Source: Fulvivirga lutea
GTDB lineage: Bacteria; Bacteroidota; Bacteroidia; Cytophagales; Cyclobacteriaceae
Direction: 5' to 3'
Length of the DNA: 64,000 nucleotides
Assembly (NCBI RefSeq): GCF_017068455.1
Contig: NZ_CP070608.1
Coordinates: forward strand, 1,040,501-1,104,500
Positions 19,440 to 58,585 of the stretch are shown here, piece after piece. The notes below the pieces were generated by a model. That model was not told where the DNA came from. It did no database searches and was given only the letters and a program-made list of their open reading frames with translations. The stretch's first letter is position 1; every line of letters starts with the position of its first letter. The position numbers and the translations under genes are program-made.

Positions 19440-20456
19440 TTAATTAATAAGTTTTTTCTGCCATCTCCAGGCATCTTGTAATGCTTCATCCAAAGATTTT
19501 GACGCTTTCCAACCTAAAGTTTTGTTTATGTAGCTTGCTTCAGCATATACTTTTTCAACATCTCCAGGTCTTCTTTCACCAATGCTGTAATTCAGTTGCA
19601 ATTTGTTTACTTTTTCGAATGTTTTAATTACATCTAAAACGGAATTACCAGTTCCTGTTCCCACATTGATATAATCAACAAGATTTTCCTTCTTGTTAAT
19701 CAAGTATTGAATTGCCGATACATGTGCCTTCGCAAGATCCACTACATGAATATAATCACGAATACATGTACCATCTTCAGTGTTGTAATCATTGCCAAAT
19801 ACAATCAATTTTTCCCTAATCCCGGCTGCAGTTTGTGTAATAAAAGGTACCAAATTATTGGGAACGCCTAATGGTAATTCGCCAATTAATGCAGATGGAT
19901 GAGCTCCAATAGGATTGAAGTACCTTAACGCCAAGGCTTTTATGTTCTTTCCAGATTTGTAATAGTCTTCAATAATATCTTCACACATTTGCTTCGTCCT
20001 ACCATAAGGAGATTCAGCGGTTTTTTTTGGTGATTTTTCAGTCACAGGCAATTTATCCGGTTGTCCATAAACTGTGCATGAAGATGAAAAAACCAAATTT
20101 TCGCAACCAGTAGCTTCCATCCATTTTAAAATGGAAATGGTTGAGCCAATATTATTCTCAAAGTACGTTAAGGGTTCTTTGGCAGATTCACCAACAGCTT
20201 TATAGGCTGCAAAATGAATACAACCATTTATTTTATAATCTTTTGTAACCTTTATCAACCAATCAACATTACCACAATCTCCTTCTAACAGTATGGGTTG
20301 TTTTCCGGTGATTTCTTTTATTCTGTCTACTACAAATCGCTCTGAATTACTGAAGTTGTCAACAATAATTGGGTCATAACCGGAATTTATTAGTTCAACA
20401 CATGTGTGCGAACCTATATATCCGGCTCCTCCAGTTACTAAAATGAAGTTGGTCAT
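19440..20456 (-). CDS. galE: UDP-glucose 4-epimerase
   Basis: A 338-residue extended SDR enzyme that interconverts UDP-glucose and UDP-galactose. It shows [11 protein letters not shown] at residues 8-18, [12 protein letters not shown] near 79, [10 protein letters not shown] near 124, and the catalytic [11 protein letters not shown] near 151. [18 protein letters not shown] near 178 is the classic GalE substrate-pocket segment, which distinguishes it from the WbpP/TviC type at 21710. The ATG overlaps the upstream tviB-like stop in an ATGA arrangement. It would supply galactose units (or GalNAc, if the pocket allows) for the polysaccharide. Confidence 0.93.
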
Positions 20457-21709: not shown

Positions 21710-22675
21710 TCAATTTATTTTCTCATTTGTTGTATACCAATAATAAACTTTGGCTAATCCCTCTTTAAAGTAAACTTCAGGCTGATACCCTAATAGTTTT
21801 GAAATTTTTGCTATATCAGCCTTGGAATGTTTTACATCTCCTTTACGCTCCGGGCCATATTGCGCCTGGATATCTTTTTTCGAAACTTCTTTTAGAATTT
21901 CCACCATTTCATTCAAAGATGTCTGCTCCCCACAGGCAACATTATAAATTTGATTTAAGGCCTCATCATCTTCTGTAAATATTCCAAGTACATTCGCCTG
22001 AACTGCGTTGGTCACATATGTAAAATCCCTGGAAGTAACTCCATCTCCATTAATGGTTGGGCTATCACCTTCTAAAAATGCTTTACAAAATATTGGAATT
22101 ACAGCGGCATATGGATTGTCCGGGCTTTGTTTTGGCCCAAACACGTTAAAGTACCTGAAGCCAATAAAATCCAGGTCATAAGTCTTCTTAAAAACTGCAG
22201 CATATTGCTCAATTGCAAATTTTGTAATGGCATACGGGCTAAGCGGGTTGCCAATTACATCTTCTTTTTTTGGCAGAGTAGGGCTATCGCCATAGGTACT
22301 GGATGAACAGGCCAAAAGCACACGATCAATTTTATTAATAACTGCTGCATGCAATATATTGACTGTGCCATCGATATTAACAGATGTTGTTAGCATCGGA
22401 TTTTCGATTGATCTGGGCACTGAGCCCAATGCCGCTTGATGCGAGATGACATCATAACCCTTTGTCAACTCCACCATTTTGTCATAATCGCGTATATCAG
22501 CCTCTTCAAAATCAAACTTAGGATGATCATTAAATTCATCCAGGTTACTTCTGTAACCGTTTGACATGTTATCAATTACCCTTACATGTTCCACACGCTC
22601 GTCATTCAGTAGTGCTTCTACTAAGTTAGAGCCAATAAAACCTGCACCGCCTGTAACTATAACCTTTTTACCCAT
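21710..22675 (-). CDS. tviC: UDP-GlcNAc 4-epimerase-like SDR (WbpP/TviC type)
   Basis: A 321-residue extended SDR with GGAGFIGSNLVEALL at 9-23, HQAALGSVPRSIENP near 80 and SSSTYGDSPTLPK near 124. The catalytic YAITKFAIEQYA follows near 148, and FRYFNVFGPKQSPDNPYAAV lies near 174. This last block and the SVPRS loop are typical of WbpP/TviC enzymes, which epimerise UDP-GlcNAc or UDP-GlcNAcA at C4. It is the first gene of the leftward sugar-nucleotide operon and is followed six bases later by the matching dehydrogenase. It is divergent from ccmB across 92 bases that contain a strong promoter match. A dTDP/UDP-glucuronate 4-epimerase is the main alternative. Confidence 0.85.
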   Translation of the reverse strand: MGKKVIVTGGAGFIGSNLVEALLNDERVEHVRVIDNMSNGYRSNLDEFNDHPKFDFEEADIRDYDKMVELTKGYDVISHQAALGSVPRSIENPMLTTSVNIDGTVNILHAAVINKIDRVLLACSSSTYGDSPTLPKKEDVIGNPLSPYAITKFAIEQYAAVFKKTYDLDFIGFRYFNVFGPKQSPDNPYAAVIPIFCKAFLEGDSPTINGDGVTSRDFTYVTNAVQANVLGIFTEDDEALNQIYNVACGEQTSLNEMVEILKEVSKKDIQAQYGPERKGDVKHSKADIAKISKLLGYQPEVYFKEGLAKVYYWYTTNEKIN

Positions 22676-44042: not shown

Positions 44043-45362
44043 ATGGAGCTTAAAGACTTTATTGTAACCCCAATAGTTTTACTTATTATCTACTTCCTGG
44101 CCTACAAAATTAGGCCAAAAGTGTGTACTGTTCATACAAAAAAATACTTTCTGCCTGCACTTACCTTAAAATTTATTGGCGCCATTGCTTTAGGCTTGAT
44201 CTATCAATTTTATTATGGAGGAGGAGATACATTTGGCTATACGACTTACGGCTCTCATTTTATTTGGGAAGCATTTAAGGATAATCCGTTCAATGCTACT
44301 AGGTTAATATTTCTTGATAATATTTTCAGATCAGACTTGTATGAATACACGCAATTCATGTGGTACTATGATGATCCACCAGCATATTTTATTGTGAGAC
44401 TGGCAGGCATATTATCAATAATTACTTTTGACACTTACTCTTCTGTGGCCATTCTATTTGCAATTATAGGTTTTTCCGGGTTATGGGCTTTTTATAATGC
44501 ATTAGTAAAAATATATCCTGAATTGCACTTTAAATTAGCCCTCGCCTTTTTTGCCGTACCCTCAGTCATATTTTGGGGTTCAGGGGTAATGAAAGATACA
44601 ATAACAGTTAGTGCTGTGGCATGGGTATCATATGCATTATTTGAAATTTTCATATTCAAGAACAGAACGATTTTTACTCTCACTATACTAATGCTAAGTA
44701 TCTGGATTATTTATATTATTAAAATCTTCATTTTGTTTTGTTTAATTCCTGCCGCAATGCTTTGGATTTACATATTGTATGTAGGAAGGATTAAATCTGC
44801 AGTTCTTAGATATACAATACAACCTGTATTAATTGTAATTCCTGTTGCAGTAAGCATTTTTGGATTATCTACCTTAACCGAGGGAAATCAGCGTTATTCA
44901 TTTGATAATATTCTATCAACAGCAGAAATAACAGCGTATGACAACTCTCTTTGGACAGTTCGTCAGGAAGGATCTGGCTATAATCTTGGGGATTATGATT
45001 TTACACCTATCGGTTTAGTTCGGAAGTTTATCCCGGCAGTTTGGGTGACATTATTTAGGCCATATTTGTGGGAAGCCAATAGTGTTGTTATGTTGTTATC
45101 GGCTATTGAAAGTTTCTTATTGTTAGCATTCGTTCTTGCAATCTTATTAAATAGTGGTTTGGTGACTTTTACTAAGAAAGGATTGTTAAACCCTCATGTA
45201 ATTATGAGCTTGTTTTTTAGCATTACGTTTGCATTTGCAGTAGGAATTTCCTCAGGAAATTTTGGTTCTCTGGTAAGATATAAAATTCCAATAATTCCGT
45301 TCTTTTTAATTGCATTGATATTAATACAGTTTCATTCAAAAAGAGACAAAAAGTTATCTTGA
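44043..45362 (+). CDS. polytopic membrane protein, candidate Wzy polymerase or GT-C transferase
   Basis: A 439-residue protein with about ten to twelve hydrophobic helices. A large first external loop carries YYGGGDTFGYTTYGSHF near 58 and YYDDPPAYFIVRLAG near 113. FAVPSVIFWGSGVMKDT follows near 173. An acidic first loop is a GT-C feature, and the helix count also fits a Wzy O-antigen polymerase. The Wzx gene is 1.3 kb away. The sequence alone does not decide between these. Its 3' end overlaps the convergent GT gene (45332-45362). Confidence 0.6.
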   Translation: MELKDFIVTPIVLLIIYFLAYKIRPKVCTVHTKKYFLPALTLKFIGAIALGLIYQFYYGGGDTFGYTTYGSHFIWEAFKDNPFNATRLIFLDNIFRSDLYEYTQFMWYYDDPPAYFIVRLAGILSIITFDTYSSVAILFAIIGFSGLWAFYNALVKIYPELHFKLALAFFAVPSVIFWGSGVMKDTITVSAVAWVSYALFEIFIFKNRTIFTLTILMLSIWIIYIIKIFILFCLIPAAMLWIYILYVGRIKSAVLRYTIQPVLIVIPVAVSIFGLSTLTEGNQRYSFDNILSTAEITAYDNSLWTVRQEGSGYNLGDYDFTPIGLVRKFIPAVWVTLFRPYLWEANSVVMLLSAIESFLLLAFVLAILLNSGLVTFTKKGLLNPHVIMSLFFSITFAFAVGISSGNFGSLVRYKIPIIPFFLIALILIQFHSKRDKKLS

Positions 45363-46435
45363 TTAGATTTAACTGAATAATAATTCAAAACCGTCTTTCT
45401 TCCTTCTGCTCCGGTATTTTTTCTTAAATCAGTATCGTTAATTAATTTTTTAAGAGTTACATACCATTCGTCATTATTTTTACATATATAACCATTAACA
45501 CCATTAGAGATTATGGAACTATTAATGCCAACAGGTGAAGCAACAGCAACTTTTTCTAAAGACATATATTGAAGTATTTTAAATCCACATTTTCCTTCAC
45601 TCCATTTATCTGCGGCTAAAGGCATAATTCCAATATCAATAGATAGAAGATCATTAATTTCAGTTTTCAGATTCCATGGTATATATTCCATGAATTCTAA
45701 TTTGAATGTTGGTGCTTTGTTGGAGATTATCAGGAATCTAAAATCCAATTCATTATGAAGTCTCTGAATTACAGGTAATACTATTTTAAGATATTTCATC
45801 GTAGTATGCGTTCCTGTCCATCCAATTACTGTCTGATTTTCACTCAGTTTTGAATTGAAAGCTTTGTGTAGATCATTATTGTCTCCAAATAAACTTGGGT
45901 TATGAAGATTCTCGGTATCAATAGTGGTGGGATTAATTAAAATATTCGAATTATATTGAGATGCAAAACTTGCTAAATAAGAATTACCGCAACTGACTTT
46001 ATAACTCCAGCTACAGATTAGAGATACTTTAGAGTACCACTTTAGCTTTGAAATAATTTTATTTTCATCTGAAACATTTGGTATCCAAATTGCATCATCA
46101 AAATCATAGACAATCTTTTTGCTGAATACTTTGACAATTAGCCATTCTAAAATAGGAGGCCCAATAGGGCTAGCTTCTCTGTGAATAAAAATATAGTCAA
46201 ATTGCTTTATTCGGAATAGAATAAAAAATCGCTTAATAAATCCTTTAACCACTGATAAAACCTTCAGAAAAGCATACTTATTTATATAAAGAATTTTCCA
46301 GTCCTCATAGTTCAAAAAAGATTGAATTTCAAAGGGAACACCTTTTTCCTTTAATAAGGTATAATACTGCTCAAACCTAAATCTTTGGGAAGGCGCGACT
46401 CCTCTAGGGTAAGGTGTAAGAAAAAGTATTTTCAT
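45332..46435 (-). CDS. family 4 glycosyltransferase (GT-B)
   Basis: A protein of about 367 residues. It begins ILFLTPYPRGVAPSQRFRFE, a standard GT-B opening in this group, and DDAIWIPNVSDE near 118 is typical of the same group. The C-terminal donor-binding half has WTGTHTTMKYL near 225 and GIMPLAADKWSEGKCGFKIL near 282, with the E-x-K-C-G-F-K pattern, then YMSLEKVAVASPVG. The frame is open 11 residues further upstream, but ATG 46435 fits the family start. Sugar specificity is unknown. It is divergent from wzx. Confidence 0.85.
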   Translation of the reverse strand: MKILFLTPYPRGVAPSQRFRFEQYYTLLKEKGVPFEIQSFLNYEDWKILYINKYAFLKVLSVVKGFIKRFFILFRIKQFDYIFIHREASPIGPPILEWLIVKVFSKKIVYDFDDAIWIPNVSDENKIISKLKWYSKVSLICSWSYKVSCGNSYLASFASQYNSNILINPTTIDTENLHNPSLFGDNNDLHKAFNSKLSENQTVIGWTGTHTTMKYLKIVLPVIQRLHNELDFRFLIISNKAPTFKLEFMEYIPWNLKTEINDLLSIDIGIMPLAADKWSEGKCGFKILQYMSLEKVAVASPVGINSSIISNGVNGYICKNNDEWYVTLKKLINDTDLRKNTGAEGRKTVLNYYSVKSNQDNFLSLFE

Positions 46436-46517
46436 TTGTTTTGAGCTTCGATGAATAAGATTAATCAACTTTACGCAAATTAAAGAAATTGAATAGGTTT
46501 AATAATAGATACATTAT

Positions 46518-46636: not shown

Positions 46637-48097
46637 ATGGCGGATCAAATTAAGTCTCAAATATTTTCAGGAATTAAATGGAATTCAATTGGTCAGTTGG
46701 TTAGACAATCTTATTCAATTGTTATCTCAATTATATTGGCTCGTTTGCTACTTCCTGAAGAATTTGGCTTGGTTGCTATGCTATTCATTTTTGCAGAACT
46801 AGCAAATGCATTTGTAAATTCTGGGTTGTCGGCATCTTTAATTCAACGAAAGAATATATCGAGTGAAGAATGCTCAACTGTCTTTTATTTTAGTATAGCG
46901 GTAGCACTATTTCTATATGTTTTATTCTACTTATCCGCTCCATTAATAGCTCATTTTTATGAAAATGATGCTCTTATAAATTTAGTTAAGTTTTATGCAC
47001 TTGGCTTTCTCTTAAGATCCTTTGATGTAGTACCAAATGCATTATTTACCAGAAATCTTAATTATAAAACCATTAATACTATTCAATCAGTTGCAAGCAT
47101 ATCTTCGGGTGTAGTAGCGGTATGCATGGCCTATCTTGGTTATGGACCTTATAGCTTAGTTGGCCAGGCAATTGCTCTTTCAGCTGTTTCGGCCATCATG
47201 AGTAATTTGCTAAGTAATTGGAAGCCGACTTTTGTTTTTAGCATTTCTAAATTTAAAGAGATGTATTCATTTGGCGTAAGAATATTTTTTGCTTCATTGT
47301 TAGACAAAATTTTCAACGCTATAGATAATATGATTATCGGTAAACTTTTTGGCGCCAATATTTTAGGGTTTTACAATCGAGGAAAATCAACCAAAGATAT
47401 TCCTGTAAGAAATATGGTGAACATAGCAACAAACATTGTTTTTCCCATTTTTTCCAAAATTGATTCAATAAATGAATTAAGGAGTGTCTTCAATAGATAT
47501 ATTGGTTTAATTTCTTATGTCATATGCCCCGTTATGTTAATGTTATTTATAACATCAGATTCATTTATTTATTTATTGTTTTCTGAAAAGTGGATGCAGT
47601 CGGTTCCTTACCTTAGATTATTTTGTATCCTGGGCATTACAATACCTTTTAATAATGTAATGGCACATACTATTTTGTCTAGAGGTGATTATAAAAAGTA
47701 TTTAAGGATTGAACTTGTGAAAAAAGGGGTAATTTTTATCGGGATGGTATTCGGGTTATTTTTTGATGCTTATTGGTTCTTATTAATCCTGGTTGTTACA
47801 CATTATATAGGACTTCTGATAATAACTATTGAAGTTGCTAAATACATAAAGAGTAGCGCTTTAGATATAATTAAAATTATTATGCCCCCGTTCGTTATAT
47901 CGATGCTTATAATCATACCAATGTACTTTATTGGCACATTAAATATTTGGTCTAACGAGCTAATTAAGTTCGTTGTGCAGTGTGTAGTAGGAATTATAAG
48001 TTATTATCTTTTCTCAGCTGCATTTCGTATCAGTGAGCAACGATATATCATCTCAGAAATTAAGAATAGATTTAATACAAGCATAAAAAGTTCTTAA
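46637..48097 (+). CDS. wzx: Wzx-type polysaccharide flippase (MOP superfamily)
   Basis: A 486-residue membrane protein with about 12-14 hydrophobic helices. Segments typical of the polysaccharide-synthesis/teichuronic-acid (WzxC-like) group are QIFSGIKWNSIGQLVRQS at the start, LPEEFGLVAM near 38, NMIIGKLFGANILGFYNRG near 231 and FSEKWMQSVPYLRLFCI near 316. It should flip lipid-linked oligosaccharide repeats to the periplasm for polymerisation by Wzy. It is the first gene of a long rightward operon (about 46.6-58.6 kb) in which junctions are short or overlapping. Confidence 0.9.
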   Translation: MADQIKSQIFSGIKWNSIGQLVRQSYSIVISIILARLLLPEEFGLVAMLFIFAELANAFVNSGLSASLIQRKNISSEECSTVFYFSIAVALFLYVLFYLSAPLIAHFYENDALINLVKFYALGFLLRSFDVVPNALFTRNLNYKTINTIQSVASISSGVVAVCMAYLGYGPYSLVGQAIALSAVSAIMSNLLSNWKPTFVFSISKFKEMYSFGVRIFFASLLDKIFNAIDNMIIGKLFGANILGFYNRGKSTKDIPVRNMVNIATNIVFPIFSKIDSINELRSVFNRYIGLISYVICPVMLMLFITSDSFIYLLFSEKWMQSVPYLRLFCILGITIPFNNVMAHTILSRGDYKKYLRIELVKKGVIFIGMVFGLFFDAYWFLLILVVTHYIGLLIITIEVAKYIKSSALDIIKIIMPPFVISMLIIIPMYFIGTLNIWSNELIKFVVQCVVGIISYYLFSAAFRISEQRYIISEIKNRFNTSIKSS

Positions 48098-48112
48098 ACC
48101 TGAATTTTTAAA

Positions 48113-48991
48113 ATGTCTTTTAAAACATACTTACAAAAACTAAATAAATTTTCTCTTTTAGAGCGACCATTAATTATGGTTTTCTCAATAAGCTCTTATT
48201 TATTGGATAAGTTACCTAAAGGCTTAATTGATACCCATATAATTTTTAGGCAACTACTTAAAAACGGTTTCCAGATAAGTCGAGATGGCGGAAATAACCT
48301 CATAACGGGTTTTAATAATTTAAAAACTGGAGTTGTAATTAAAAGAGACTCATCAGATGCGAGCGTTTTAAAACAGATTCTAATTGATATGGAATATGAA
48401 CCTGTAGTTAAACTTTTGCAAAACAATAATATAATGCCCGATAAGATAATTGATGCGGGAGCGAATATAGGCCTAACAACACTTTATCTTAAATCTATTT
48501 TTCCTGATGCAATTGTTATTGCACTTGAGCCCAATAAATCAACATTCTTAAGGATGAGGAACAATTTTGAGCTTAATGGTTGTTTAAATGTAATTTCTTT
48601 AAATATAGGGATATGGAATAGCAATGCTTTTTTAATTCCAGATAATACCTTTAGAGATGGTCAGGATTGGTCTTTCAGACTCATAGAATCTGATAGCAAA
48701 TCGAATCAAAATATTGAAGTTAGATCTTTAGAAAGTCTCCTTGACGAATATAAATGGGACGTAGTTGATTTTTTAAAAGTAGATATAGAAGGCGCTGAAA
48801 GTAAACTTTTTGAAAATAAGGAACTGGTTCAAAACTGGTTACCTAGGGTAAAGGCAATTGCTATAGAGATACACGATGAATTTAACTGTAAAGATAGAAT
48901 TTTGAGGATTTTATCTGAATATCAATTTCAAGTGGAATTTTGTGGTGAGTTGTCTGTTGGAGTAAACCAAAGGTTGGTTAAAAAATCATAG
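48113..48991 (+). CDS. FkbM family methyltransferase
   Basis: A 292-residue SAM-dependent methyltransferase. KIIDAGANIGLTTLYLKSIF is near residue 112 (motif I), VIALEPNKSTFLRMRNN follows near 138, and VDFLKVDIEGAESKLF near 218 is the FkbM signature. It most probably O-methylates a sugar of the polysaccharide. It lies 15 bases after wzx and 3 bases before the next gene. The N-terminal ~70 residues are extra to the methyltransferase core. Confidence 0.88.
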   Translation: MSFKTYLQKLNKFSLLERPLIMVFSISSYLLDKLPKGLIDTHIIFRQLLKNGFQISRDGGNNLITGFNNLKTGVVIKRDSSDASVLKQILIDMEYEPVVKLLQNNNIMPDKIIDAGANIGLTTLYLKSIFPDAIVIALEPNKSTFLRMRNNFELNGCLNVISLNIGIWNSNAFLIPDNTFRDGQDWSFRLIESDSKSNQNIEVRSLESLLDEYKWDVVDFLKVDIEGAESKLFENKELVQNWLPRVKAIAIEIHDEFNCKDRILRILSEYQFQVEFCGELSVGVNQRLVKKS

Positions 48992-48994
48992 AAT

Positions 48995-49990
48995 TTGAAA
49001 AGGATAGTTATACTCATACCGTATTTTGGTGATTGGCCGCCATTTATAAATATTTATCTTCAATCATGTGCTTTCAATAAGGAAATTCTGGATGTTATCT
49101 TTATAACAGATTTACCTGCCATAAAAAATGCCCCTGAAAATGTAAATTTTCATCATATTTCATTTGACGGATTAAAAAAGCATATTGAGGATAAGCTAGA
49201 ATTAAAATTACCCAACATAGCACCATACAAGTTATGTGATTTTAGGCCTGCTTACGGAGTACTCTTCAAAGAGCTTGTTAAAGATTATGATTTCTGGGGC
49301 TATGGTGACATTGATTTAATTTATGGTGAATTAAACAGGTTTATTACGGATGATATACTGAATAATTATGATTTATTAGCCTTTAAGAAGGGTCACTTAC
49401 ATGGGCCCTTTTCATTATATAGGAATAATGAAGATGTTAATTTGTTATATAGGAAGGGCAATTTTAAAGAAATATTCCAAACCGAAGAATATCTTTCTTA
49501 TGATGAGTTTAGTCGAAATCCATTTTATACTGAAATAGAAGACGAACAAGAAATATTGAAATTACCTAATAATAACATCTCTGTTATTGTATTTAAAGAG
49601 CAAATAGCTAAAAATCTATCGGTTTATAATGTTCAATATGCTAAAGAGAATTTAACGAAAAGAGAAATTATAGCTTACAGTCAAGGGAGGCTTTATAATT
49701 ATCACACTAATGAAAATTACATATTTTATCACTGGGTGTTAGAGAAGAGATTCATTTGGTTTAACTATCCAAATTGGATATTACAAGCCCCCAAAGAATT
49801 TTACATGAGTTTAACTGGGTTTTACAATATTGAAGAATTCAAGATTTACACCTATTTACACTATAAAAAAATGATTGTCGGAATGATCAAATGGTGGTAT
49901 TTGAAAATCAAAAATTACATTAAAAGGAAAGTGGGATTAGTAGTAACTTTGGACACTTACCCTAAAAGAGGCTGGGTTAAACCCCTTTAA
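48995..49990 (+). CDS. DUF6625-type glycosyltransferase-like protein
   Basis: A 331-residue GT-A-like protein that opens RIVILIPYFGDWPPFINIYL and carries a probable DxD donor site in FWGYGDIDLIYGEL near residue 100. YKLCDFRPAYGVLF near 79 is another strongly conserved-looking block. This pattern matches the DUF6625 group found in bacterial polysaccharide clusters. The start is TTG, three bases after the FkbM stop, and no better start is available. The sugar transferred is unknown. Confidence 0.78.
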   Translation: MKRIVILIPYFGDWPPFINIYLQSCAFNKEILDVIFITDLPAIKNAPENVNFHHISFDGLKKHIEDKLELKLPNIAPYKLCDFRPAYGVLFKELVKDYDFWGYGDIDLIYGELNRFITDDILNNYDLLAFKKGHLHGPFSLYRNNEDVNLLYRKGNFKEIFQTEEYLSYDEFSRNPFYTEIEDEQEILKLPNNNISVIVFKEQIAKNLSVYNVQYAKENLTKREIIAYSQGRLYNYHTNENYIFYHWVLEKRFIWFNYPNWILQAPKEFYMSLTGFYNIEEFKIYTYLHYKKMIVGMIKWWYLKIKNYIKRKVGLVVTLDTYPKRGWVKPL

Positions 49991-49993
49991 GCC

Positions 49994-51148
49994 ATGAAAA
50001 AAATTCGTATTCTTCATTTAATTACTGACCTTGGAAAAGGTGGCGCTGAGCGATTTCTTTTGGACTTATGCAAGGAGCTGGAAAACTATGCGAATATTGA
50101 TTTTAGAGTTGGCGTCCTATATGACAACAATCGAAATCAAATATTTACTTCTAATCTTCCTATTGTTCAACTGAATTACACTTCTCATTCTTTCAGGCGA
50201 GTAAATGATTGTATAGAATACAAAAAACTATTGAACGAGTTTAAACCCCACATTATCCATTCACACAGATTTTTAGCTGAGTTTTTGTCGTCTTATTATG
50301 TAAACCCAAACATATGCTATGTATGCCACGGACATGATAATATGATACAACTCAATCGTCCATCGCTCAATACTTTTATGAACAAGAGATTGTTACTTAA
50401 TTATCTTGAGCGACTTCACTTAATTTTTAATAAATATAATCGAGTACCAACCTATTTTATAGCAAATTCTAGACATACAGAGAACTACTATAGAAAGGTT
50501 CTCCCGAGGCATATGATAAGCAATGTCAAATTGATTGAATATGGATTTGACTCGAAAAAATTTTATGATTCAAAACAAAAGAGTCTTCCTAAGACCAATG
50601 AAAGGCTTAAAATCATAAATGTTGGAAGTTTTCAAAAAAAGAAGAATCAAAAATTTATAGTAGAAATTGGCAAGGCACTTAGAGATCGAGCAATTGATTT
50701 TGAAATTCATTTGCTCGGGGATGGGGAATTAAGGCAAGATGTTGAAAAGCAGGTACATAAAAACGACCTGACACAATATATTTATTTCCATGGTGTGGTT
50801 GATAATGTAGAAGATTGGTTAAAAAAATCTCATCTCTATCTTCATACTGCATGGTATGAGCCTTTCGGACTTGTTTTCTTGGAAGCCATGGCGGCAGGTT
50901 TACCATGCATAGCATATAACGGTCAGGGTAATAGAGATTTAATTAAAAACGGCAAAAATGGCTACTTTTTGGAGGAACATTCTGCCTCTTTATTTGCTGA
51001 GAAGATAATAGAACTAATATCAAATGAACAATTATATTTAGAAATATCTAATTATTGCAAGTCCTTCGCTTTGAACTATGATATTGAAATCAAGACTAAA
51101 GAATTGATTGACTTTTATAACCAAATTGTATCGGAGTTAAAAGAATAA
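49994..51148 (+). CDS. family 4 glycosyltransferase (GT-B)
   Basis: A 384-residue GT4 enzyme. The N-terminal half starts IRILHLITDLGKGGAERFLL (with the GGAE acceptor-side loop). The C-terminal half has INVGSFQKKKNQKFIVEI near 205 and EPFGLVFLEAMAAGLPCIAY near 295, containing the donor-phosphate-binding E-x7-E motif. It is probably retaining and active. It follows the DUF6625 gene by three bases in the same operon. Confidence 0.9.
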   Translation: MKKIRILHLITDLGKGGAERFLLDLCKELENYANIDFRVGVLYDNNRNQIFTSNLPIVQLNYTSHSFRRVNDCIEYKKLLNEFKPHIIHSHRFLAEFLSSYYVNPNICYVCHGHDNMIQLNRPSLNTFMNKRLLLNYLERLHLIFNKYNRVPTYFIANSRHTENYYRKVLPRHMISNVKLIEYGFDSKKFYDSKQKSLPKTNERLKIINVGSFQKKKNQKFIVEIGKALRDRAIDFEIHLLGDGELRQDVEKQVHKNDLTQYIYFHGVVDNVEDWLKKSHLYLHTAWYEPFGLVFLEAMAAGLPCIAYNGQGNRDLIKNGKNGYFLEEHSASLFAEKIIELISNEQLYLEISNYCKSFALNYDIEIKTKELIDFYNQIVSELKE

Positions 51149-51171
51149 GAGTTAACTATCTTAACAATAAA

Positions 51172-52101
51172 ATGGAGGAGAATAAACATATCAAATTGCC
51201 TTTAGGCACAGTTTCATTATCTCCAGAACTCGGTTCCTACTATATCGATATGAGACCGGCTAAAATTCATTATCAACCTAATATTTGGGGAGGCGATTTT
51301 GATCAAAATGGAGTGCCTCGAATAAGTTTTAAAGGTGAGCTTGGTTACTTTCCAATTAATATAGCCCAATATGGCTTTATGCTCCATGCTGAATGGTTAG
51401 AAACAGGAAATATAGAAACTCTTGAATTAATGAAGAGTTGCCTGAATGTGTTGGAGGAAATTAAAACTGAAAACAATGACCATTGCGTATGGTGGCATAA
51501 TGAAATAAATTATAGATATAATATTGAACCTCCATGGGCCTCAGCAATGGCTCAAGGTGAATTAATCTCCTTTTATTTAAGAATGTATCAAATACTAGGA
51601 GAAACAGATTTACTCAACACAGCATTAAAATCATATGAATTTATGCGTGTAAATGTTTCAGAGGGGGGTGTAAGACAGTATAGCGAAGATTTAGGAACAT
51701 GGCTGGAAGAATATCCTTCTGATCCACCATCTTTTGTACTTAATGGGTTCATTTATGCTATTTTTGGTATATACGATTTATACAGAGTTACAAGAAATGA
51801 GTTGATTAATGAGGATTTGCAAAGGTTATTAAATACGGTAAAAAATAACCTTAGTAAATTCGATGCGGGATTTTGGTCTTATTACGATCTTCAAAAAAAA
51901 GAGTTAGTGCGTTATTATTATCAAAAGAATGTCCATATTCCTCAATTAAATGTACTATATCAGTTAACTAATGAACCAGTATTTTTAAAATACGCTGAAA
52001 AGTGGGAGAGACAACTTACAAGTATTAATTATTTGATTGTGAAAATTATGTACAGAGTTTTACCAAGAGTAAGAAAATTGAAAAAGTTAATCTCATTTTG
52101 A
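51172..52101 (+). CDS. D-glucuronyl C5-epimerase family protein
   Basis: A 309-residue protein related to the C-terminal catalytic domain of animal heparan sulfate glucuronyl C5-epimerase. It shows PPWASAMAQGELISFYLR near 120, and WLEEYPSDPPSFVLNGF near 180, where the animal enzymes have EEYPTTPSSFVLNGF. It ends with a VHIPQL block followed by NEPVFLKYAEKW near 260-290, where they have a HINQL block and SPVFKEFVKRW. The family inverts C5 of glucuronate to iduronate within the polymer or a lipid-linked intermediate. No signal peptide is seen, so it would act in the cytoplasm, before Wzx export. Its partner genes include a sulfotransferase at 54639. Substrate identity is inferred. Confidence 0.82.
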   Translation: MEENKHIKLPLGTVSLSPELGSYYIDMRPAKIHYQPNIWGGDFDQNGVPRISFKGELGYFPINIAQYGFMLHAEWLETGNIETLELMKSCLNVLEEIKTENNDHCVWWHNEINYRYNIEPPWASAMAQGELISFYLRMYQILGETDLLNTALKSYEFMRVNVSEGGVRQYSEDLGTWLEEYPSDPPSFVLNGFIYAIFGIYDLYRVTRNELINEDLQRLLNTVKNNLSKFDAGFWSYYDLQKKELVRYYYQKNVHIPQLNVLYQLTNEPVFLKYAEKWERQLTSINYLIVKIMYRVLPRVRKLKKLISF

Positions 52102-53321
52102 ATCTCTATTTTTTATGTGACCAATACCCGATTGGTAAAGGGGAGTTTTTTGTAGACAATGAAATTAAAATTCTTGCCTCATACTTTGATGAAGTTTATA
52201 TATTCATTCCTAGACAGTCAGCTTACGACTTAGGAAGGCAGGTACCCAAAAATCTTAAAGTTATAGAGTATGATCTGAACTTTAGTAAGTGGGATGTTAT
52301 AAGGTATTACTATTTATTTTTTAAACTATTTTTTCTAGCAGAGCTAGTCTTTGCCATTAAAAAGTTAGGGTTTTCTCAATGCCTTAATAGCCTTAAGATC
52401 ATGATTGTTGATGTTTTAAAGGCAAAGAAGCTTAGTTTGCTTCTATTCAAGTCAATATCACTCAATCCTAAGAAAGAAGGATTATTATATTCATATTGGA
52501 ATGACTATAAGGCGCTATCAATAGCCTTAATAAAACAAAAATACCCACTAATAAAAGGCATATCACGAGCACATGGTTGGGATGTCTTCGCAGAAAGGCA
52601 ACGCATTCCATACTTACCATTTAAGAAATTTATATGTAGTAGTTTGGAGCAGACTTATTCAATTTCCACTTCAGGGATGAATGAATTGTTAAGTGTGTAC
52701 GGCCTGCCTTCAGATAAGATTAGCGTTAGTAGATTAGGGACAATTAATAATGCCTCTTATAACATGAATAATCCTACTAATGGATTTACAATATGTAGTT
52801 GTTCAAATTTAATTCCACTTAAGCGAGTTCATTTAATAATAGAAATATTGAGCTTGCTTAAAACCAAGGATGTTCATTGGATACATTTTGGGGATGGCCC
52901 ACAAAAAGATGAATTGATGTCGTTAGCCAAGATAAGATTAAAGGAAAGTAGTTATACCTTTTCAGGTCTTGTTCCTAATCATGAGATAATAGAACATTAT
53001 ACTAATAATTTCATTGACTTATTTATAAATGTTAGCAGTTCAGAGGGAATACCTGTAAGTATTATGGAAGCAATGTCGGCAGGGATACCTGTGATAGCCA
53101 CTAATGTTGGAGGTAGTGCTGAAATTGTAAATAACAATAATGGATTTTTGATTGAGAGGGACTTTAATATTGAACAGGCGGCAGAATTGATTGACCATTA
53201 TTTCTCCAGACCTGTTGATTATCGTGAACAAAAGAGAGAAGCAGCCTACTCCTATTGGCACAAGCACTATAATGCTAATATTAACTATCATACTTTTGCA
53301 CAGGCAATAATTCATGTATGA
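52098..53321 (+). CDS. family 4 glycosyltransferase (GT-B)
   Basis: A 407-residue GT4 enzyme. LYFLCDQYPIGKGEFFVDNE at the start is typical of GT4 enzymes of this kind. SRAHGWDVFAERQR near 155, ICSCSNLIPLKRVHLIIE near 232 and SSSEGIPVSIMEAMSAGIPV near 314 follow, the last with the E-x7-E donor site. The start is TTG and overlaps the preceding TGA stop (TTGA), so re-initiation is expected. The next gene also overlaps by four bases. Confidence 0.88.
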   Translation: MNLYFLCDQYPIGKGEFFVDNEIKILASYFDEVYIFIPRQSAYDLGRQVPKNLKVIEYDLNFSKWDVIRYYYLFFKLFFLAELVFAIKKLGFSQCLNSLKIMIVDVLKAKKLSLLLFKSISLNPKKEGLLYSYWNDYKALSIALIKQKYPLIKGISRAHGWDVFAERQRIPYLPFKKFICSSLEQTYSISTSGMNELLSVYGLPSDKISVSRLGTINNASYNMNNPTNGFTICSCSNLIPLKRVHLIIEILSLLKTKDVHWIHFGDGPQKDELMSLAKIRLKESSYTFSGLVPNHEIIEHYTNNFIDLFINVSSSEGIPVSIMEAMSAGIPVIATNVGGSAEIVNNNNGFLIERDFNIEQAAELIDHYFSRPVDYREQKREAAYSYWHKHYNANINYHTFAQAIIHV

Positions 53322-54583
53322 GAAAAATACTTATAATAAGTTACTTTTTTCCTCCAAGCATTCTCACAGCATCTAATCGAGTTGAAGGGTGGGCCAAGCA
53401 TTTGGCTAAATTCGGTTATTATCCCATTGTAATAACTAGAAATTGGGACATTCAAGGATCGCAGGAAAAGCAACGGTTGCAAACTAGTGGTAAAAAAATA
53501 GAGGTTAACTACCATGATGATTTTGAGGTGCACTATCTACCATATAGATCTTCATTTAGAGATATATGTTTGAATAGAAACTGGAGATTTTTATCACGCG
53601 TGCTCACATTTTTTGAATTGATATTAAGGAATTTTACTGTTCAAATTATACCTTATCGCAACCTGTATTTTTATGCTAAAAAAATAATTAAAAAAAATAC
53701 AGATATAACGGGAGTACTCATATCAGCAAACCCTTTTGAGCAATTCCTTTTTGGTTTTAAATTAAAAAAACTATTTCCTGAGTTAAAGTGGATTGCAGAA
53801 TATAGAGATGAATGGACAACAAGAAAAGAATATGACAGTACAAGAGGCAAAAATTCTCTAGTTAAATTTCTTGAGAGAAGGTCGGAAACTAAATGGTTGA
53901 AAGAAGCTGATTTGGTATTTACAACCTGTTCTTATTTTTCAAATAGAATATCTCAGCTATTGAATCAAAATGTTGAAGTAATACCTCATGGGATGGTAGA
54001 TGCGTTGCTAGCTACAGATGATAGGGAAATTGATAAACAAAAGTTTAAGATTGTTTATGGGGGTACTTTGTATTCAAATCAGCCTGTCGAAAGCTTTCTT
54101 AGAGCCTGGCAGTCTTTCGCTAGAGATAAAGAAGATACAGAACTTTTGTTTTTAGGTGCTAATGTTGATTCATCCGTAAATATACGTCTGCAGCCTTATG
54201 TTTGTGAAAATGTAAAAGTAACCGAACGAATAAAACGAGTAGAATCTGATAAAATGCATCAGGAAGCAGCTATTTTATTGCTTCTACCTTATGATAATAT
54301 GAAGGGTTGGCCCTCAAGTAAATTATATCATTATCTCACCTATAAACGGCCAATTCTACTATTTCCGAATGATCATGATATTATGGAAGAAGTACTTATG
54401 GATACCAAATTAGGAATTATTCCAAAAAGTGAACCTGAACTTGTTTCTATATTAGAATTAAACTATGAAAGTTGGAAGAAAGGTCGATTTAATCCTATTA
54501 AAGGCGAAAATATTCATAAATATACTCAGGCACAGCAGGCTAAAATACTATCTGAATATTTGAATCAATTAAATGCCAATTAA
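53318..54583 (+). CDS. GT-B glycosyltransferase
   Basis: A 421-residue protein with a GT-B opening, ILIISYFFPPSILTASNRVEG, and EYRDEWTTRKEY near 166 in the acceptor half. The C-terminal half starts KIVYGGTLYSNQPVESFLRA near 246 and has KGWPSSKLYHYLTYKRPILL near 330, an SSKLxxYL donor-side pattern in place of the usual E-x7-E. It is clearly a relative of the WcaI/GT4 group, though more distant than its neighbours. Translation is coupled by an ATGA overlap with the gene before it. Confidence 0.8.
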   Translation: MRKILIISYFFPPSILTASNRVEGWAKHLAKFGYYPIVITRNWDIQGSQEKQRLQTSGKKIEVNYHDDFEVHYLPYRSSFRDICLNRNWRFLSRVLTFFELILRNFTVQIIPYRNLYFYAKKIIKKNTDITGVLISANPFEQFLFGFKLKKLFPELKWIAEYRDEWTTRKEYDSTRGKNSLVKFLERRSETKWLKEADLVFTTCSYFSNRISQLLNQNVEVIPHGMVDALLATDDREIDKQKFKIVYGGTLYSNQPVESFLRAWQSFARDKEDTELLFLGANVDSSVNIRLQPYVCENVKVTERIKRVESDKMHQEAAILLLLPYDNMKGWPSSKLYHYLTYKRPILLFPNDHDIMEEVLMDTKLGIIPKSEPELVSILELNYESWKKGRFNPIKGENIHKYTQAQQAKILSEYLNQLNAN

Positions 54584-54638
54584 TGGTATCCCATTCTATA
54601 GTTATAAATTTAGATGAGGTCAAGGCACTAAAACCAGT

Positions 54639-55526
54639 ATGAGGAAAATCGATTTAATGATAATAGGAGCACAAAAAGCTGGTACTACTTCGCTAAAAAA
54701 TTATTTAGCTGAGCATCCAGACATTGGTGTGCATATTACAGAAGAACTAGCTTATTTTCAATCTGAAAATGAATATTCAAAAGGTTTCGATACATCCTTT
54801 AAAAGAAGTTACCTTAAACAAAATGCTAAGGTTATTGTAGCGAAAAATGCGGGCCTTTATGAACGGGAGTTGTATTTAAGTAGATTAAGCGGACATAATA
54901 AAGACTGTAAAATTGTCTTTATCATAAGAAATCCTGTAGATAGGGCATTCTCATCTTATTTAATGGAAAAAAGAGAAGGATTTATTGATTTTGATTCTAA
55001 AAAACTTGTAGATATAATATCGTCAGATGATCCTTATGACAAGAACTATTTCAGAAAGTTTTTAGGGTTAGGATTGTATTCAATTCATTTGCAAAACATA
55101 TTAGCTCATTTCCCAAAAGAGAATGTACACATATTTACTTTTGAGGAATTAAAGTCAGATGCACAGCAGGTTTGTTCAAAAATATTTGAGATTCTGAATA
55201 TTGATCCTACGATTTATATTAACGCAAATAAGGTTTACAACAAAAGAAAACACATACGTTCCAAACGTTTGGCAAGAATATTAAATAGATTGAAACAAGA
55301 GGAGAATCCATTGAAAAGGGTTTCTAAAAAGATTATCCCATATCGATGGTTTTTAAAATTATCAAAACGCATTCAATCAATTAATTACACAAAAGAAGAA
55401 ACCCAGCGTGAAGTATTGAGTGATGATGTTAGAATGCAATTAATTGAATTTTATAAACCCTACAATTTGAAATTGTCAAAAATGATTGGGAGAGAATTAA
55501 GTGATTGGAATAAGGTAAGGAATTAA
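54639..55526 (+). CDS. PAPS-dependent sulfotransferase
   Basis: A 295-residue sulfotransferase of the type that includes heparan sulfate sulfotransferases. The 5'-phosphosulfate loop IIGAQKAGTTSLKNYLAEHP is at 8-27, and the 3'-phosphate-binding segment IVFIIRNPVDRAFSSYLME is near 90. LYSIHLQNILAHFPKENVHI near 145 is also typical. No signal peptide or membrane helix is seen, so it should act in the cytoplasm with PAPS. Together with the C5-epimerase two genes upstream it argues for a sulfated uronic-acid-containing polymer. asnB starts at the very next base after its stop. Confidence 0.87.
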   Translation: MRKIDLMIIGAQKAGTTSLKNYLAEHPDIGVHITEELAYFQSENEYSKGFDTSFKRSYLKQNAKVIVAKNAGLYERELYLSRLSGHNKDCKIVFIIRNPVDRAFSSYLMEKREGFIDFDSKKLVDIISSDDPYDKNYFRKFLGLGLYSIHLQNILAHFPKENVHIFTFEELKSDAQQVCSKIFEILNIDPTIYINANKVYNKRKHIRSKRLARILNRLKQEENPLKRVSKKIIPYRWFLKLSKRIQSINYTKEETQREVLSDDVRMQLIEFYKPYNLKLSKMIGRELSDWNKVRN

Positions 55527-57374
55527 ATGTGTGGCATAGCTGGTATTTACGGAAATTTCAAGAATCAGGAAATAACTATTAGAAATATTACTAATAAGTT
55601 GAAACACCGTGGCCCTGATTCTGAAGGCTATTATGTAAATACAACATCAGGAATTGCCTTAGGTCATAGGCGGTTAAGCATCCTTGATTTATCAGAGAAT
55701 GGAAATCAGCCATTCTATTCTCATTGCAAGAGGTATGTAATGGTATATAATGGCGAAGTGTTTAATTACAAAGAAATCGCTTCGAACCTGAATATAAACC
55801 TTAAAACGAATTGTGATTCCGAAGCAATTATTGAGGCGTTTGTTTTAGTGGGTAAACAATTTGTACATCAATTAAATGGTATGTTTGCCATTGTAATATA
55901 TGATACTTTAAAAAATTCGATTTACTTATTTCGGGATAGATTGGGGATTAAACCATTATTCTATTTATATAATCCATCCAACAATCAGTTTGCTTTTTCA
56001 TCAGAGATTAAATCACTTAAACCACTACTTTCAGAAAGCCAACCAGATATAAATCAACACTCCTTGGCTGAATTTTTACACTTAGGTTATATTTCTCAGT
56101 CTTCAACAATTTATAGTGACATCCTAAAATTTCCATCTGGTAGTTATGGCGTCTATCATGATAATCATTTAGAAATAGACTCTTATTGGGAGCCAGAGAC
56201 CCATATATCAACTGAAGTGATTAAAGATGAAATTGAGGCTAAAGATAGATTAAGTGAATTGCTTACAGATGCTGTAAGAATGAGAATGATAGCCGATGTA
56301 CCGCTAGGTACATTTCTTAGTGGGGGCATAGATTCAAGTATTGTTACTGCCTTCGCACAAAGACTTTCTGACTTGCCTATAAAAACATTTTCTATAGGGT
56401 TTAAAGACAATAAATATAACGAAAGTGTATTTGCAAAATCTGTGGCAAAACATTTGGGAACGGAACATTATGAATTCATACTTACAGAGCAAGATGCTTT
56501 AGATCAAATTACTAACTTATTGGATATATATGATGAACCATTTGCTGATTCATCTGCAATTCCCACTTTGTTAGTAAGCAGGATGGCTCGAAAAGAAGTG
56601 ACCGTAGCTCTTTCTGGTGATGGTGGAGATGAGCAGTTTATGGGTTATGGCATGTATGACTGGTCTAACCGACTGTCAAATCCAATTATAAATACATTTA
56701 GAAAGCCATTAGCCTATGGTTTAAAAACAGTAGGAAATAACCGTTTAATGCGTGGAGCGGAAGTTTTGAATTATTATTCAAAAAAAAATATCGAAAGTCA
56801 TATATTCTCTCAAGAGCAATATTTATTCTCTGAACGAGAATTGAATTTAATATTAGTTAATCCCCCAGATGAGTTGGCCATTTTTAAAAATTTTGGAAAA
56901 ATACCTCGAAAACTAACTGCATCTGAAAAACAATCATTCTTTGATTTAAAATATTACCTAAAAGATGATTTGTTAGTAAAAGTTGATCGAGCTTCTATGT
57001 TTCATTCATTAGAGGTAAGAGTTCCACTTCTAGATCACAATTTGGTTGAATTTACACTTAATCTTGATGAGAAGTTGAAAATAAAAAAAGGTATTAAAAA
57101 GTACCTGCTAAAACAAGTACTCTATGATTACGTACCTGAAAGCTATTTTAACAGACCCAAATGGGGGTTTTCAATTCCGCTAGAGCGTTGGCTCAGCACT
57201 AGTTTAAAGTATCTTTTAGATGAATATTTGTCTAAAGAAGTAGTGGAAGATTGCGGCATTGTAAACTGGGAGATTGTGAGAGATATCAAAACACAGTTTT
57301 TTTCTGGTAGAGTTTTTTTATACAATAGATTATGGGCACTTATATTAATACATAAATGGATAAAGGCTCAGTAA
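55527..57374 (+). CDS. asnB: glutamine-hydrolysing asparagine-synthetase-type amidotransferase
   Basis: A 615-residue AsnB. It begins MCGIAGIYG with the catalytic N-terminal cysteine. HRGPDSEGYYV is near 28, LGHRRLSILDLSENGNQPF near 46, and the RDRLGIKPLFY block near 137. The ATP-pyrophosphatase loop LSGGIDSSI is near 264, and VDRASMFHSLEVRVPLLDH near 488. All catalytic motifs are intact. Within polysaccharide operons such proteins usually amidate a uronic acid rather than make asparagine (WbpS is the known example), and tviB here would supply that acid. It starts immediately after the sulfotransferase stop. Confidence 0.9.
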   Translation: MCGIAGIYGNFKNQEITIRNITNKLKHRGPDSEGYYVNTTSGIALGHRRLSILDLSENGNQPFYSHCKRYVMVYNGEVFNYKEIASNLNINLKTNCDSEAIIEAFVLVGKQFVHQLNGMFAIVIYDTLKNSIYLFRDRLGIKPLFYLYNPSNNQFAFSSEIKSLKPLLSESQPDINQHSLAEFLHLGYISQSSTIYSDILKFPSGSYGVYHDNHLEIDSYWEPETHISTEVIKDEIEAKDRLSELLTDAVRMRMIADVPLGTFLSGGIDSSIVTAFAQRLSDLPIKTFSIGFKDNKYNESVFAKSVAKHLGTEHYEFILTEQDALDQITNLLDIYDEPFADSSAIPTLLVSRMARKEVTVALSGDGGDEQFMGYGMYDWSNRLSNPIINTFRKPLAYGLKTVGNNRLMRGAEVLNYYSKKNIESHIFSQEQYLFSERELNLILVNPPDELAIFKNFGKIPRKLTASEKQSFFDLKYYLKDDLLVKVDRASMFHSLEVRVPLLDHNLVEFTLNLDEKLKIKKGIKKYLLKQVLYDYVPESYFNRPKWGFSIPLERWLSTSLKYLLDEYLSKEVVEDCGIVNWEIVRDIKTQFFSGRVFLYNRLWALILIHKWIKAQ

Positions 57375-58585
57375 AACATATACTTTATTTGTCTTACGAT
57401 GGAATGACAGATCCTTTAGGTCAGTCTCAAGTGCTCCCTTATTTAGTTGGTCTTTCAAATAAAGGTTTTAAATTTTCATTGCTCTCATTCGAGAAAAAGG
57501 TAAATAGTGATAATGAAAAAATAATTAATGAAATTATTAATACGGTTGATATATCGTGGTTTCCACAATCCTATTCGAAAAGACCTCCTGTACTATCAAC
57601 AATTTGGGACATCATTAAGATGTATAATGCTTCGAAAAGAATCTTAAAGAAAAACCCTTATGTTATTGTTCATTGTAGGAGTTATGTGGCAGCCCTTGTC
57701 GGTCTAAAGCTGAAAAAGAAATTCGGAATTAAATTCGTATTTGACATGCGCGGGTTCTGGGTAGACGAACGAGTTGAAGGAGGTATTTGGAAGTTATCCA
57801 ATCCGTTTTATAAATTAATCTATAGGTTTTTTAAAGAAAAGGAATCTTATTTCTTTAATGATAGTGATTACATAATTTCATTAACCCAGGCTGGTAAAGA
57901 AGAAATAATTAGTAATTATTTATCTAAAAATGTACCTATCGAAGTAATACCATGTTGTGTTAATAGTGATTTGTTTGATTATAAAACGGTAAATCATAAT
58001 AGGCAAATTGGACTACAAAGTACTTTAAAACTTGACACAGATAATTTCATAATCTCATATTTAGGATCTATTGGTACTTGGTATATGTTGGATGAAATGC
58101 TTGAATTCTTTAAAGAGCTTTTAAACAAAAAACCAAATGCAATTTTTCTATTCATAACAGCTGATAATCCTTTAATAATAGAGAGGAAAGCTAGTGAGTT
58201 AGGTATTAATAAAAATCAGATTAGAATTACTAAAGTTACTAGGAAGGAAGTCCCAGATTATTTAGCGCTAAGTGATGTAGCCCTATTTTTTATAAAACCT
58301 GTTTATTCTAAAATCGCTTCATCTCCTACCAAATTAGCTGAAATTATGGCAATGGGGATTCCAATTATTTGTAATGACAATGTAGGTGACATTAAAAGCA
58401 TAGTAAATGACGAGGTTGGTTATGTTATTAATCAATTTACTAAATCAGAATATCAAAATGCTATTCGTAAAATACCAAGGCTAATGCAAAAGGATAAGTT
58501 AAAGATTAGAAATCAATCGATAAGACAATTTAATTTGGATCGTGGTATAGACAAGTATGCTAATGCATACAATAAGCTAGTTTGA
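57356..58585 (+). CDS. family 4 glycosyltransferase (GT-B)
   Basis: A 409-residue GT4-like enzyme. It opens HILYLSYDGMTDPLGQSQVL, a Bacteroidota-typical start, with FDMRGFWVDERVEGG near 129. In the donor half are ISYLGSIGTWYMLDEMLEFF near 232 and IASSPTKLAEIMAMGIPIIC near 320, with S-P-T-K-x-x-E in place of the usual E-x7-E. Its ATG lies 19 bases inside the end of asnB. It is the last gene of the rightward operon that begins at wzx. Confidence 0.86.
   Translation: MDKGSVKHILYLSYDGMTDPLGQSQVLPYLVGLSNKGFKFSLLSFEKKVNSDNEKIINEIINTVDISWFPQSYSKRPPVLSTIWDIIKMYNASKRILKKNPYVIVHCRSYVAALVGLKLKKKFGIKFVFDMRGFWVDERVEGGIWKLSNPFYKLIYRFFKEKESYFFNDSDYIISLTQAGKEEIISNYLSKNVPIEVIPCCVNSDLFDYKTVNHNRQIGLQSTLKLDTDNFIISYLGSIGTWYMLDEMLEFFKELLNKKPNAIFLFITADNPLIIERKASELGINKNQIRITKVTRKEVPDYLALSDVALFFIKPVYSKIASSPTKLAEIMAMGIPIICNDNVGDIKSIVNDEVGYVINQFTKSEYQNAIRKIPRLMQKDKLKIRNQSIRQFNLDRGIDKYANAYNKLV

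Follow-up and report, generated by a model that had tools for sequence, protein, structure and literature searches.

Bacterial synthesis of L-iduronic acid (IdoA) is little explored, and the introduction of one paper (2026; PMC13308652) names one bacterial iduronic-acid-making enzyme as identified, from Bermanella marisrubri. The Bermanella protein, RED65_08024 (Raedts 2013), is a bacterial relative of the animal heparan sulfate glucuronyl C5-epimerase (Glce). It is reported to be active in vitro on desulfated heparin and heparan sulfate (HS) (PMC13308652, PMC4432689, PMC12834895), and its natural target was not known as of 2015 (PMC4432689). Clusters for sulfated bacterial polysaccharides that include sulfotransferases have already been published (PMC8205485, PMC11641403, PMC7356697). 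Our literature search found no paper on a C5-epimerase with a sulfotransferase in a Bacteroidetes exopolysaccharide, or on undecaprenyl-linked iduronic acid; earlier lists of prokaryotic candidates may exist, perhaps including members of the clade analyzed here. Here, we analyzed a stretch of 64,000 nucleotides from Fulvivirga lutea (contig NZ_CP070608.1, positions 1,040,501 to 1,104,500; the whole stretch is called the window), in which the open reading frame (ORF) at 51172-52101 encodes a predicted Glce-type uronosyl C5-epimerase. An original prediction for this DNA had proposed a glycosaminoglycan (GAG)-like sulfated polymer. The reading that we consider moderately probable is that a membrane-attached Glce-type epimerase converts glucuronic acid (GlcA) to IdoA in a lipid-linked unit before flipping, with sulfation as a variable addition.

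A Glce-type protein and its operon

The ORF encodes 309 amino acids predicted to form a single helical-barrel domain. Its match to PF06662 (E 3.6e-49, residues 110-279) scores 167.3 bits, above the curated cut-off of 23.3, and phmmer searches against solved structures returned human Glce (6hzz, E 2.8e-25; also 6i01) and zebrafish Glce (4pw2, E 1e-21). The segments on which the likeness to Glce had originally been proposed are all present (EEYP, SFVLNGF, HIPQL, and PVFLKYAEKW). We took the catalytic set of Glce from section 6 of PMC13308652 (E499, Y500, N510, Y560, and Y578) and placed it on the bacterial protein through its phmmer alignment, in which 60 of 165 aligned residues are identical to human Glce. 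All five residues are kept, as E180, Y181, N191, Y238, and Y250, the three catalytic tyrosines among them. An AlphaFold model built from 15 sequences (pLDDT 86.4, pTM 0.86) agreed with this assignment: the best eight PDB matches in Foldseek are all Glce (E 1.7e-12 to 2.5e-11; root mean square deviation [rmsd] 2.0-2.5 Å; query TM-score [TMq] 0.58-0.60), led by 6hzz (E 1.7e-12, rmsd 2.1 Å, TMq 0.60), with cellobiose 2-epimerases, YihS, and GH76 enzymes following at E 2.5e-5 or weaker.

The beta-hairpin and beta-sandwich domains of animal Glce are absent from the model, which consists of one helical domain. Because these N-terminal domains are missing, we regard the protein as a member of the catalytic-domain family and not as an animal-type Glce. 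A scan for hydrophobic segments detected none, and thus neither a signal nor a membrane span; residues 283-309 form a basic C-terminal tail. A basic tail without a hydrophobic segment is most naturally read as the mark of a cytoplasmic enzyme that is attached to the inner membrane.

The gene lies within a run of ten genes on the + strand (46637-58585), separated by gaps of -19 to +55 bases, which bears out the Wzx operon originally proposed. The order is Wzx, FkbM methyltransferase, DUF6625, GT4a, epimerase, GT4b, GTc, sulfotransferase, AsnB-type amidotransferase, and GT4d, where GT stands for glycosyltransferase (Table 1). Scans of the operon for promoters and terminators returned results at chance level. 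The parts of a Wzx/Wzy pathway that are seen are Wzx, the GTs, and a WcaJ-type initiating transferase encoded outside the window, after cysN/cysD/cysC; the Wzy candidate was picked by hydrophobicity alone, matched no Pfam or NCBIfam family, and has a homologue in three epimerase loci (L066, L068, and L070). AsnB-type amidotransferases usually amidate uronic acids, and the one encoded here may do the same. Judged from sequence, 51172-52101 is a real Glce-family enzyme within a real surface-polysaccharide operon, and it is fairly likely to act on a glycan precursor by epimerizing one of its uronic acids.

Table 1. Features of the window discussed in the text
Feature	Coordinates	Strand	Evidence or remark
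Small protein with a sulfotransferase-like predicted fold	5125-5670	+	AlphaFold model comparison
TviB-type UDP-GlcNAc C6-dehydrogenase	20453-21703	-	NF011729, 586 bits (cut-off 592); possible supply of an N-acetylhexosaminuronic acid donor
TviC-like UDP-GlcNAcA C4-epimerase	21710-22675	-	Best model NF011728, 291 bits, far under its cut-off of 760
Multi-pass membrane protein, candidate Wzy/EpsG-like polymerase	44043-45362	+	13 partly overlapping hydrophobic segments
GT4-type glycosyltransferase	45332-46468	-	PF13692, E 9.4e-9
Wzx-type flippase	46637-48097	+	PF13440, E 1.9e-82; NCBIfam Wzx/MOP flippase models below cut-off
FkbM-type methyltransferase	48113-48991	+	PF05050, E 3.4e-16; homologue near the epimerase in L066 and L068
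DUF6625 protein, probable glycosyltransferase	48995-49990	+	PF20330, E 1.6e-54
GT4a glycosyltransferase	49994-51148	+	PF00534, E 9.2e-35
Glce-type uronosyl C5-epimerase (predicted)	51172-52101	+	PF06662, Glce structures, five catalytic residues
GT4b glycosyltransferase	52098-53321	+	PF00534, E 3.8e-28; 4-base overlap with the epimerase gene
GTc, GT4-like glycosyltransferase	53318-54583	+	PF13439/PF13692, weak, below cut-off
Sulfotransferase, PAPS-dependent (predicted), read as a variable decoration gene	54639-55526	+	PF00685 (Sulfotransfer_1), E 5.4e-20
AsnB-type glutamine amidotransferase	55527-57374	+	PF00733, E 3.9e-99; TIGR03108, 513 bits, below cut-off
GT4d glycosyltransferase	57356-58585	+	PF00534, E 2.1e-14

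Conservation of the enzyme and its neighbors

Three of 147 genomes of the same taxonomic family, including that of F. lutea, carry a strong PF06662 match. The other 15 of the 18 matching genomes gave weak matches only (E 9.8e-6 to 9.9e-4, six above the Pfam cut-off), which we left uncounted because we read them as superfamily noise. In a draw across the phylum, PF06662 was found at E 1e-12 in 14 of 395 genomes, its own included, and a BLAST survey of the order recovered the epimerase in 1 of 390, namely F. lutea itself. PF06662 also matched a protein of the survey control, Methanocaldococcus jannaschii, with a score over the cut-off of the family, and one scan for viral copies with a single sequence found no pattern match. 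From 308 relatives detected in a scan of genome contigs, we retained the 80 best (loci L065-L144). The ten nearest, with 42-58% identity, come from entries titled Taishania, Crocinitomicaceae, Flavobacteriales, Flammeovirgaceae, Bacteroidales, and Bacteroidetes.

For residue conservation we used a set of 91 family proteins; L081, L124, L136, and L141 were excluded, having no called epimerase ORF. S124, Q128, R137, E179, E180, and G192 are invariant in all 91, N191 and Y238 are each kept in 89, and Y181 is kept in 76. The equivalent of Y578 was scored by motif (YYYQKNVH in the near clade, with one residue inserted) and is present in 90 of 91 proteins by pattern and in 15 of 15 in a smaller alignment; L064, which misses the pattern, has the tyrosine there by eye. 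A C-terminal tail of at least 12 residues is found in 88 of the 91, with a median net charge of +6. The last 20 residues carry a charge of at least +5 in 70% of these 88 tailed epimerases versus 2.5% of 158 GT-, AsnB-, DUF6625-, and FkbM-type proteins from the same loci, and the tail exceeds every other 20-residue stretch in basicity in 43 of 86 epimerases.

L058, L061, and L062, the three members that have no tail, carry an N-terminal hydrophobic segment followed by Cys, and the epimerase of genome G027 (L031) shows hydrophobic stretches at either end. An exported-looking PF06662 protein in L033 (9989-10906) adjoins SusD (PF07980) and a TonB-plug receptor, and those of L061 and L062 adjoin an FAD-oxidase gene. 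The exported-looking proteins (L033, L058, L061, and L062) probably form a second, non-biosynthetic branch. Separately, a KSB1 metagenome-assembled genome (MAG; L123:4087-5430) encodes a PF06662 domain fused to a hexapeptide-repeat acyltransferase domain, pointing to a coupling of epimerization with acylation.

Homologues of the neighboring genes were counted in the fetched stretches at E below 1e-15, two of which (L066 and L069) stop close to the epimerase. Among the ten nearest relatives, DUF6625 was found in six, GT4a in seven, GT4b in six, GTc in seven, the EpsG-like protein in three, and FkbM in two; the DUF6625 gene lies at most two genes from the epimerase in 6 of 10. The order is kept in L066, which reads EpsG-like, two genes, Wzx, FkbM, DUF6625, one gene, epimerase. 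In its nearest relatives, the epimerase is part of a recurrent DUF6625-GT4-GT4-GT cassette. GTc stands at most two genes from the epimerase in 5 of the 14 phylum-survey loci, and AsnB homologues flank the epimerase in 21 of 66 distant loci, in 2 of 10 close ones, and in 3 of 14 from the phylum survey. The position behind GTc, occupied by the sulfotransferase in F. lutea, holds a PF13489 methyltransferase in L068 and L070 and, in L067, one that is cut by the contig end and scores just under the cut-off. Seven loci have GTc; besides these three, the remaining four hold something different at this position. Because a methyltransferase occupies the place of the sulfotransferase in three loci, we read this place as an exchangeable decoration slot.

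Sulfation and the supply of uronic acid

Can the sulfotransferase be taken as a partner of the epimerase? The closest solved relatives of 54639-55526 include 3rnl ('Sulfotransferase', 9.6e-20) and HS 3-O-sulfotransferases (8.5e-17), in agreement with the heparan type originally assigned to it. It is one of four PF00685 genes in the genome. The genes for 3'-phosphoadenosine 5'-phosphosulfate (PAPS), cysN, cysD, and cysC, are also present, at genome positions 1027000-1029795, 11 kb outside the window and ∼57 kb from the operon, next to an inositol-phosphatase-family gene; the operon's sulfotransferase is thus accompanied by PAPS genes in the genome. Missing catalytic tyrosines and missing PAPS genes were two outcomes that the original prediction had named as refuting it, and neither was seen. 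We rejected the idea that PAPS is dedicated to sulfation: the genome also has cysH (PAPS reductase), so PAPS is shared with assimilation. A phenylalanyl-tRNA synthetase alpha (pheS-type) gene adjoins cysNDC of F. lutea (L028:5475-9295) as well as the polysaccharide locus that carries the epimerase in G027 (L032:2962-3987), and the pheS-type neighborhood is a possible shared insertion site for surface-glycan genes.

One of the ten nearest relatives (L067) has a Pfam-confirmed sulfotransferase near the epimerase, 3.2 kb away. A sulfotransferase profile made from four seeds and iterated, hence of limited reach, was positive in this one locus among the 80 named loci and in none of 70 more distant ones; 76 of the 80 had a called epimerase ORF, and in 45 of these 76 the sequence extended for 5 kb or more to either side. 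In the phylum survey, 2 of 14 fetched stretches contained a Pfam-confirmed sulfotransferase (L055 at 4.6 kb and L062 at 7.8 kb), and L060 had a profile match not listed by the PF00685 search, plus a second P-loop protein without a Pfam family. On these locus counts we rejected a conserved epimerase-sulfotransferase pair at the locus, the combination that the original prediction had stressed; the genome-level association speaks for the original prediction. Five of the ten nearest relatives have PF00685 somewhere in the genome; for the phylum draw, the count is 6 of 14 epimerase genomes versus 83 of 381 others (p 0.096; the PF00685 and PF06662 draws were taken as identical, their handles coinciding). 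Epimerase genomes tend to have sulfotransferases, mostly not beside the epimerase, and the association is mild. The sulfotransferase at 54639-55526 looks like an optional, lineage-specific decoration and not like proof of a heparan-like polymer.

For 5125-5670, which had been named as a second, smaller sulfotransferase, support came from the predicted fold and not from family membership. Its AlphaFold model (pLDDT 90) matches the sulfotransferases 5x2b and 4gbm at TMq 0.62-0.64 and E ∼4e-4; the top match by E value is a receptor-complex chain with TMq 0.36, and many low-TM matches follow. By sequence, it matched neither a Pfam nor an NCBIfam family, and none of the solved structures was a convincing relative. 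Relatives occur in 9 of 245 same-family genomes, its own included, as a family without a Pfam entry, and two of eight members match Sulfotransfer_4 at E 0.028 or weaker. Sulfotransferase activity is compatible with the modeled fold.

The UDP-uronic acid dehydrogenase proposed at 20453 is indeed a dehydrogenase, encoded on the minus strand ∼30 kb from the epimerase. It is of the TviB type and scores at most 160 bits with UDP-glucose dehydrogenase models; these scores and its TviC-like neighbor indicate that it should make UDP-GlcNAcA/GalNAcA rather than UDP-GlcA. One other gene in the genome passes a nucleotide-sugar dehydrogenase cut-off, a TuaD-type UDP-glucose dehydrogenase at genome positions 493928-495238 (549 bits, below the 700 cut-off of the TuaD-type model). 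UDP-GlcA can thus be made, though probably not by 20453-21703. As stated, the argument that the window joins uronic acid supply, epimerization, and sulfation fails at the supply step.

The TuaD-type protein was searched for in 40 epimerase genomes, made up of 25 (those of the phylum draw, one same-family genome, and ten named relatives) and 15 chosen from the 70 distant loci, five of them for a UDP-HexNAc-type gene seen near the epimerase. A match of at least 43% identity was found in 34 of 40, F. lutea included, one of them covering 297 residues only. The six without are G403, G305, and G199 (35-36%), which carry exported epimerase forms, G886 (37%), and G971 and G975 (at most 30%). Directly adjoining the epimerase in L083, L098, and L137 is a dehydrogenase for which UDP-HexNAc models give the highest scores, though under their cut-offs. 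G971 and G975 are the genomes of L098 and L137, and their TuaD matches include this adjoining gene, the sole match in G971. In L098 (8445-10804) and L137 (338-2639), a UDP-ManNAc-dehydrogenase-like gene (below cut-off) stands directly before the epimerase.

Proposed mechanism, alternatives, and comparison with known systems

We propose that 51172-52101 would act as a cytoplasmic, membrane-attached uronosyl C5-epimerase, probably held by its basic C-terminal tail. Its substrate would be GlcA that has already become part of an oligosaccharide repeat unit, carried on undecaprenyl at the inner membrane face; in Wzx/Wzy systems, lipid-linked units are built at the inner membrane (PMC8205485). The C5 proton would be abstracted and returned to yield L-iduronic acid. 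GT4a, GT4b, and GTc would build the sugars around the target uronic acid, and the sulfotransferase and the AsnB-type amidotransferase would decorate the repeat unit carrying the epimerized residue. Epimerization would precede flipping by Wzx, after which a Wzy-like polymerase would join the units. The Glce structures as closest matches, the complete catalytic set, the absence of a hydrophobic segment, the basic tail, the Wzx operon, the TuaD-type gene (also matched in 33 of 39 other genomes), and the PAPS genes support this proposal, and we give the conversion of GlcA to IdoA before flipping somewhat better than an even chance. The operon, its recurrent cassette, the basic tail, and the family, predicted fold, and active-site residues of the protein are what the analysis shows; the substrate, the membrane attachment, the timing, and a product with iduronate and sulfate are, the last as in the original prediction, things that we infer.

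Several observations weigh against this proposal. Y181 is replaced in 15 of 91 family members. The tail could bind something other than a membrane, and AlphaFold confidence is low there (the final two full blocks score 73 and 62). The exported PF06662 members, one of them beside SusC/SusD-type genes, indicate that the fold also serves other roles. Glce acts on substrates of at least six sugars (PMC13308652), and together with the missing beta domains this means that its specificity is not transferable. The TviB-type dehydrogenase is nearer to the operon than the TuaD-type gene. Finally, PF00685 is found in 12 of the 25 epimerase genomes versus 83 of 381 others (p 0.006, mixed sampling).

This last comparison would fit the original idea of an operon for a GAG-like sulfated polymer (heparan/dermatan-like), epimerized after polymerization, as would an epimerase and an HS-type sulfotransferase in one operon, the PAPS genes 11 kb outside the window, and the sulfated GAG-like polymers reported from Pontiella (PMC7356697). 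However, the presence of Wzx and several GT4-type transferases points to a heteropolysaccharide and not to a disaccharide polymer of the GAG kind, and no GAG-synthase-type family was found among the ten operon and three upstream proteins scanned, the rest of the genome not having been screened. The epimerase also has no export signal, whereas Wzx/Wzy polymerization comes after flipping (PMC8205485). With a TviB-type dehydrogenase at 20453 and a sulfotransferase not conserved beside the epimerase, we rejected the GAG-like polymer as the preferred explanation and consider it very improbable. The lack of an export signal and the biosynthetic operon also bear on whether the PF06662 protein is a lyase- or hydrolase-like or inactive relative that works in glycan turnover and is no epimerase. 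Hydrolases and 2-epimerases have this fold too, and exported members stand beside SusC/SusD-type (one) and FAD-oxidase-type genes (two), but the F. lutea protein lacks such a signal, keeps the full Glce catalytic set, and belongs to a family recurrently linked to glycosyltransferases; we regard a turnover role as improbable.

A closer alternative keeps the enzyme class and the timing and changes the target to an N-acetylhexosaminuronic acid (HexNAcA; GlcNAcA, GalNAcA, or ManNAcA), giving the C5 epimer, an L-sugar. We kept HexNAcA as a candidate substrate because UDP-HexNAc-type genes abut the epimerase in L083, L098, and L137, and for the F. lutea enzyme too because its nearest supply genes are of the TviB/TviC type; no TuaD-type gene was found in the genomes of L098 and L137. 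However, these two genomes are MAGs of unstated completeness, so that incompleteness could explain the missing gene, and the three loci hold distant members (30-34% identity). The TuaD-type genes of F. lutea and most of the other genomes, as well as an active site that matches an enzyme known for GlcA, also favor GlcA, and a HexNAcA target seems unlikely, if a good deal less so than a GAG-like polymer. Tentatively, the proposal may extend further: membrane-tethered, single-domain Glce-type epimerases, widespread in bacteria, might edit GlcA (in some cases HexNAcA) in lipid-linked units before flipping, with the unit also sulfated here.

If this wider proposal is true, F. lutea would make a surface glycan with an iduronate-type sugar and sulfate by means of homologues of animal heparan enzymes. 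The cassette recurs in Flavobacteriales and relatives with a predicted catalytically complete enzyme, and it makes the substrate, the timing, and the partner transferases testable. Compact C5-epimerases without the extra domains of the animal enzyme could also serve in making heparin-like sugars.

Among known systems, animal Glce (6hzz and 4pw2) shares the helical catalytic domain and its five catalytic residues with 51172-52101, which in contrast is a compact protein with a basic tail, without signal, span, beta-hairpin, or beta-sandwich, encoded in a Wzx operon. The synechan (xss) and Vibrio KMM 8419 clusters likewise place sulfotransferases among glycosyltransferase genes (PMC8205485, PMC11641403). 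Synechan also resembles the F. lutea operon in its Wzx/Wzy (PMC8205485), and the Vibrio cluster has cysNDC (PMC11641403). In F. lutea, cysNDC stands apart from the operon and is shared with assimilation. The Vibrio capsule differs in its export, which is by an ABC transporter, and the sole 'epimerase' found in PMC11641403 is a heptose epimerase. Agl32 of Halobacterium salinarum is a prokaryotic C5-epimerase that acts on a lipid-linked, also sulfated oligosaccharide (PMC13308652). It is without the Glce catalytic residues and AGE-superfamily-like, thus an analogue and not a homologue (PMC13308652, section 6); by analogy, it may serve as a precedent for the logic of combining epimerization and sulfation on a lipid-linked unit.

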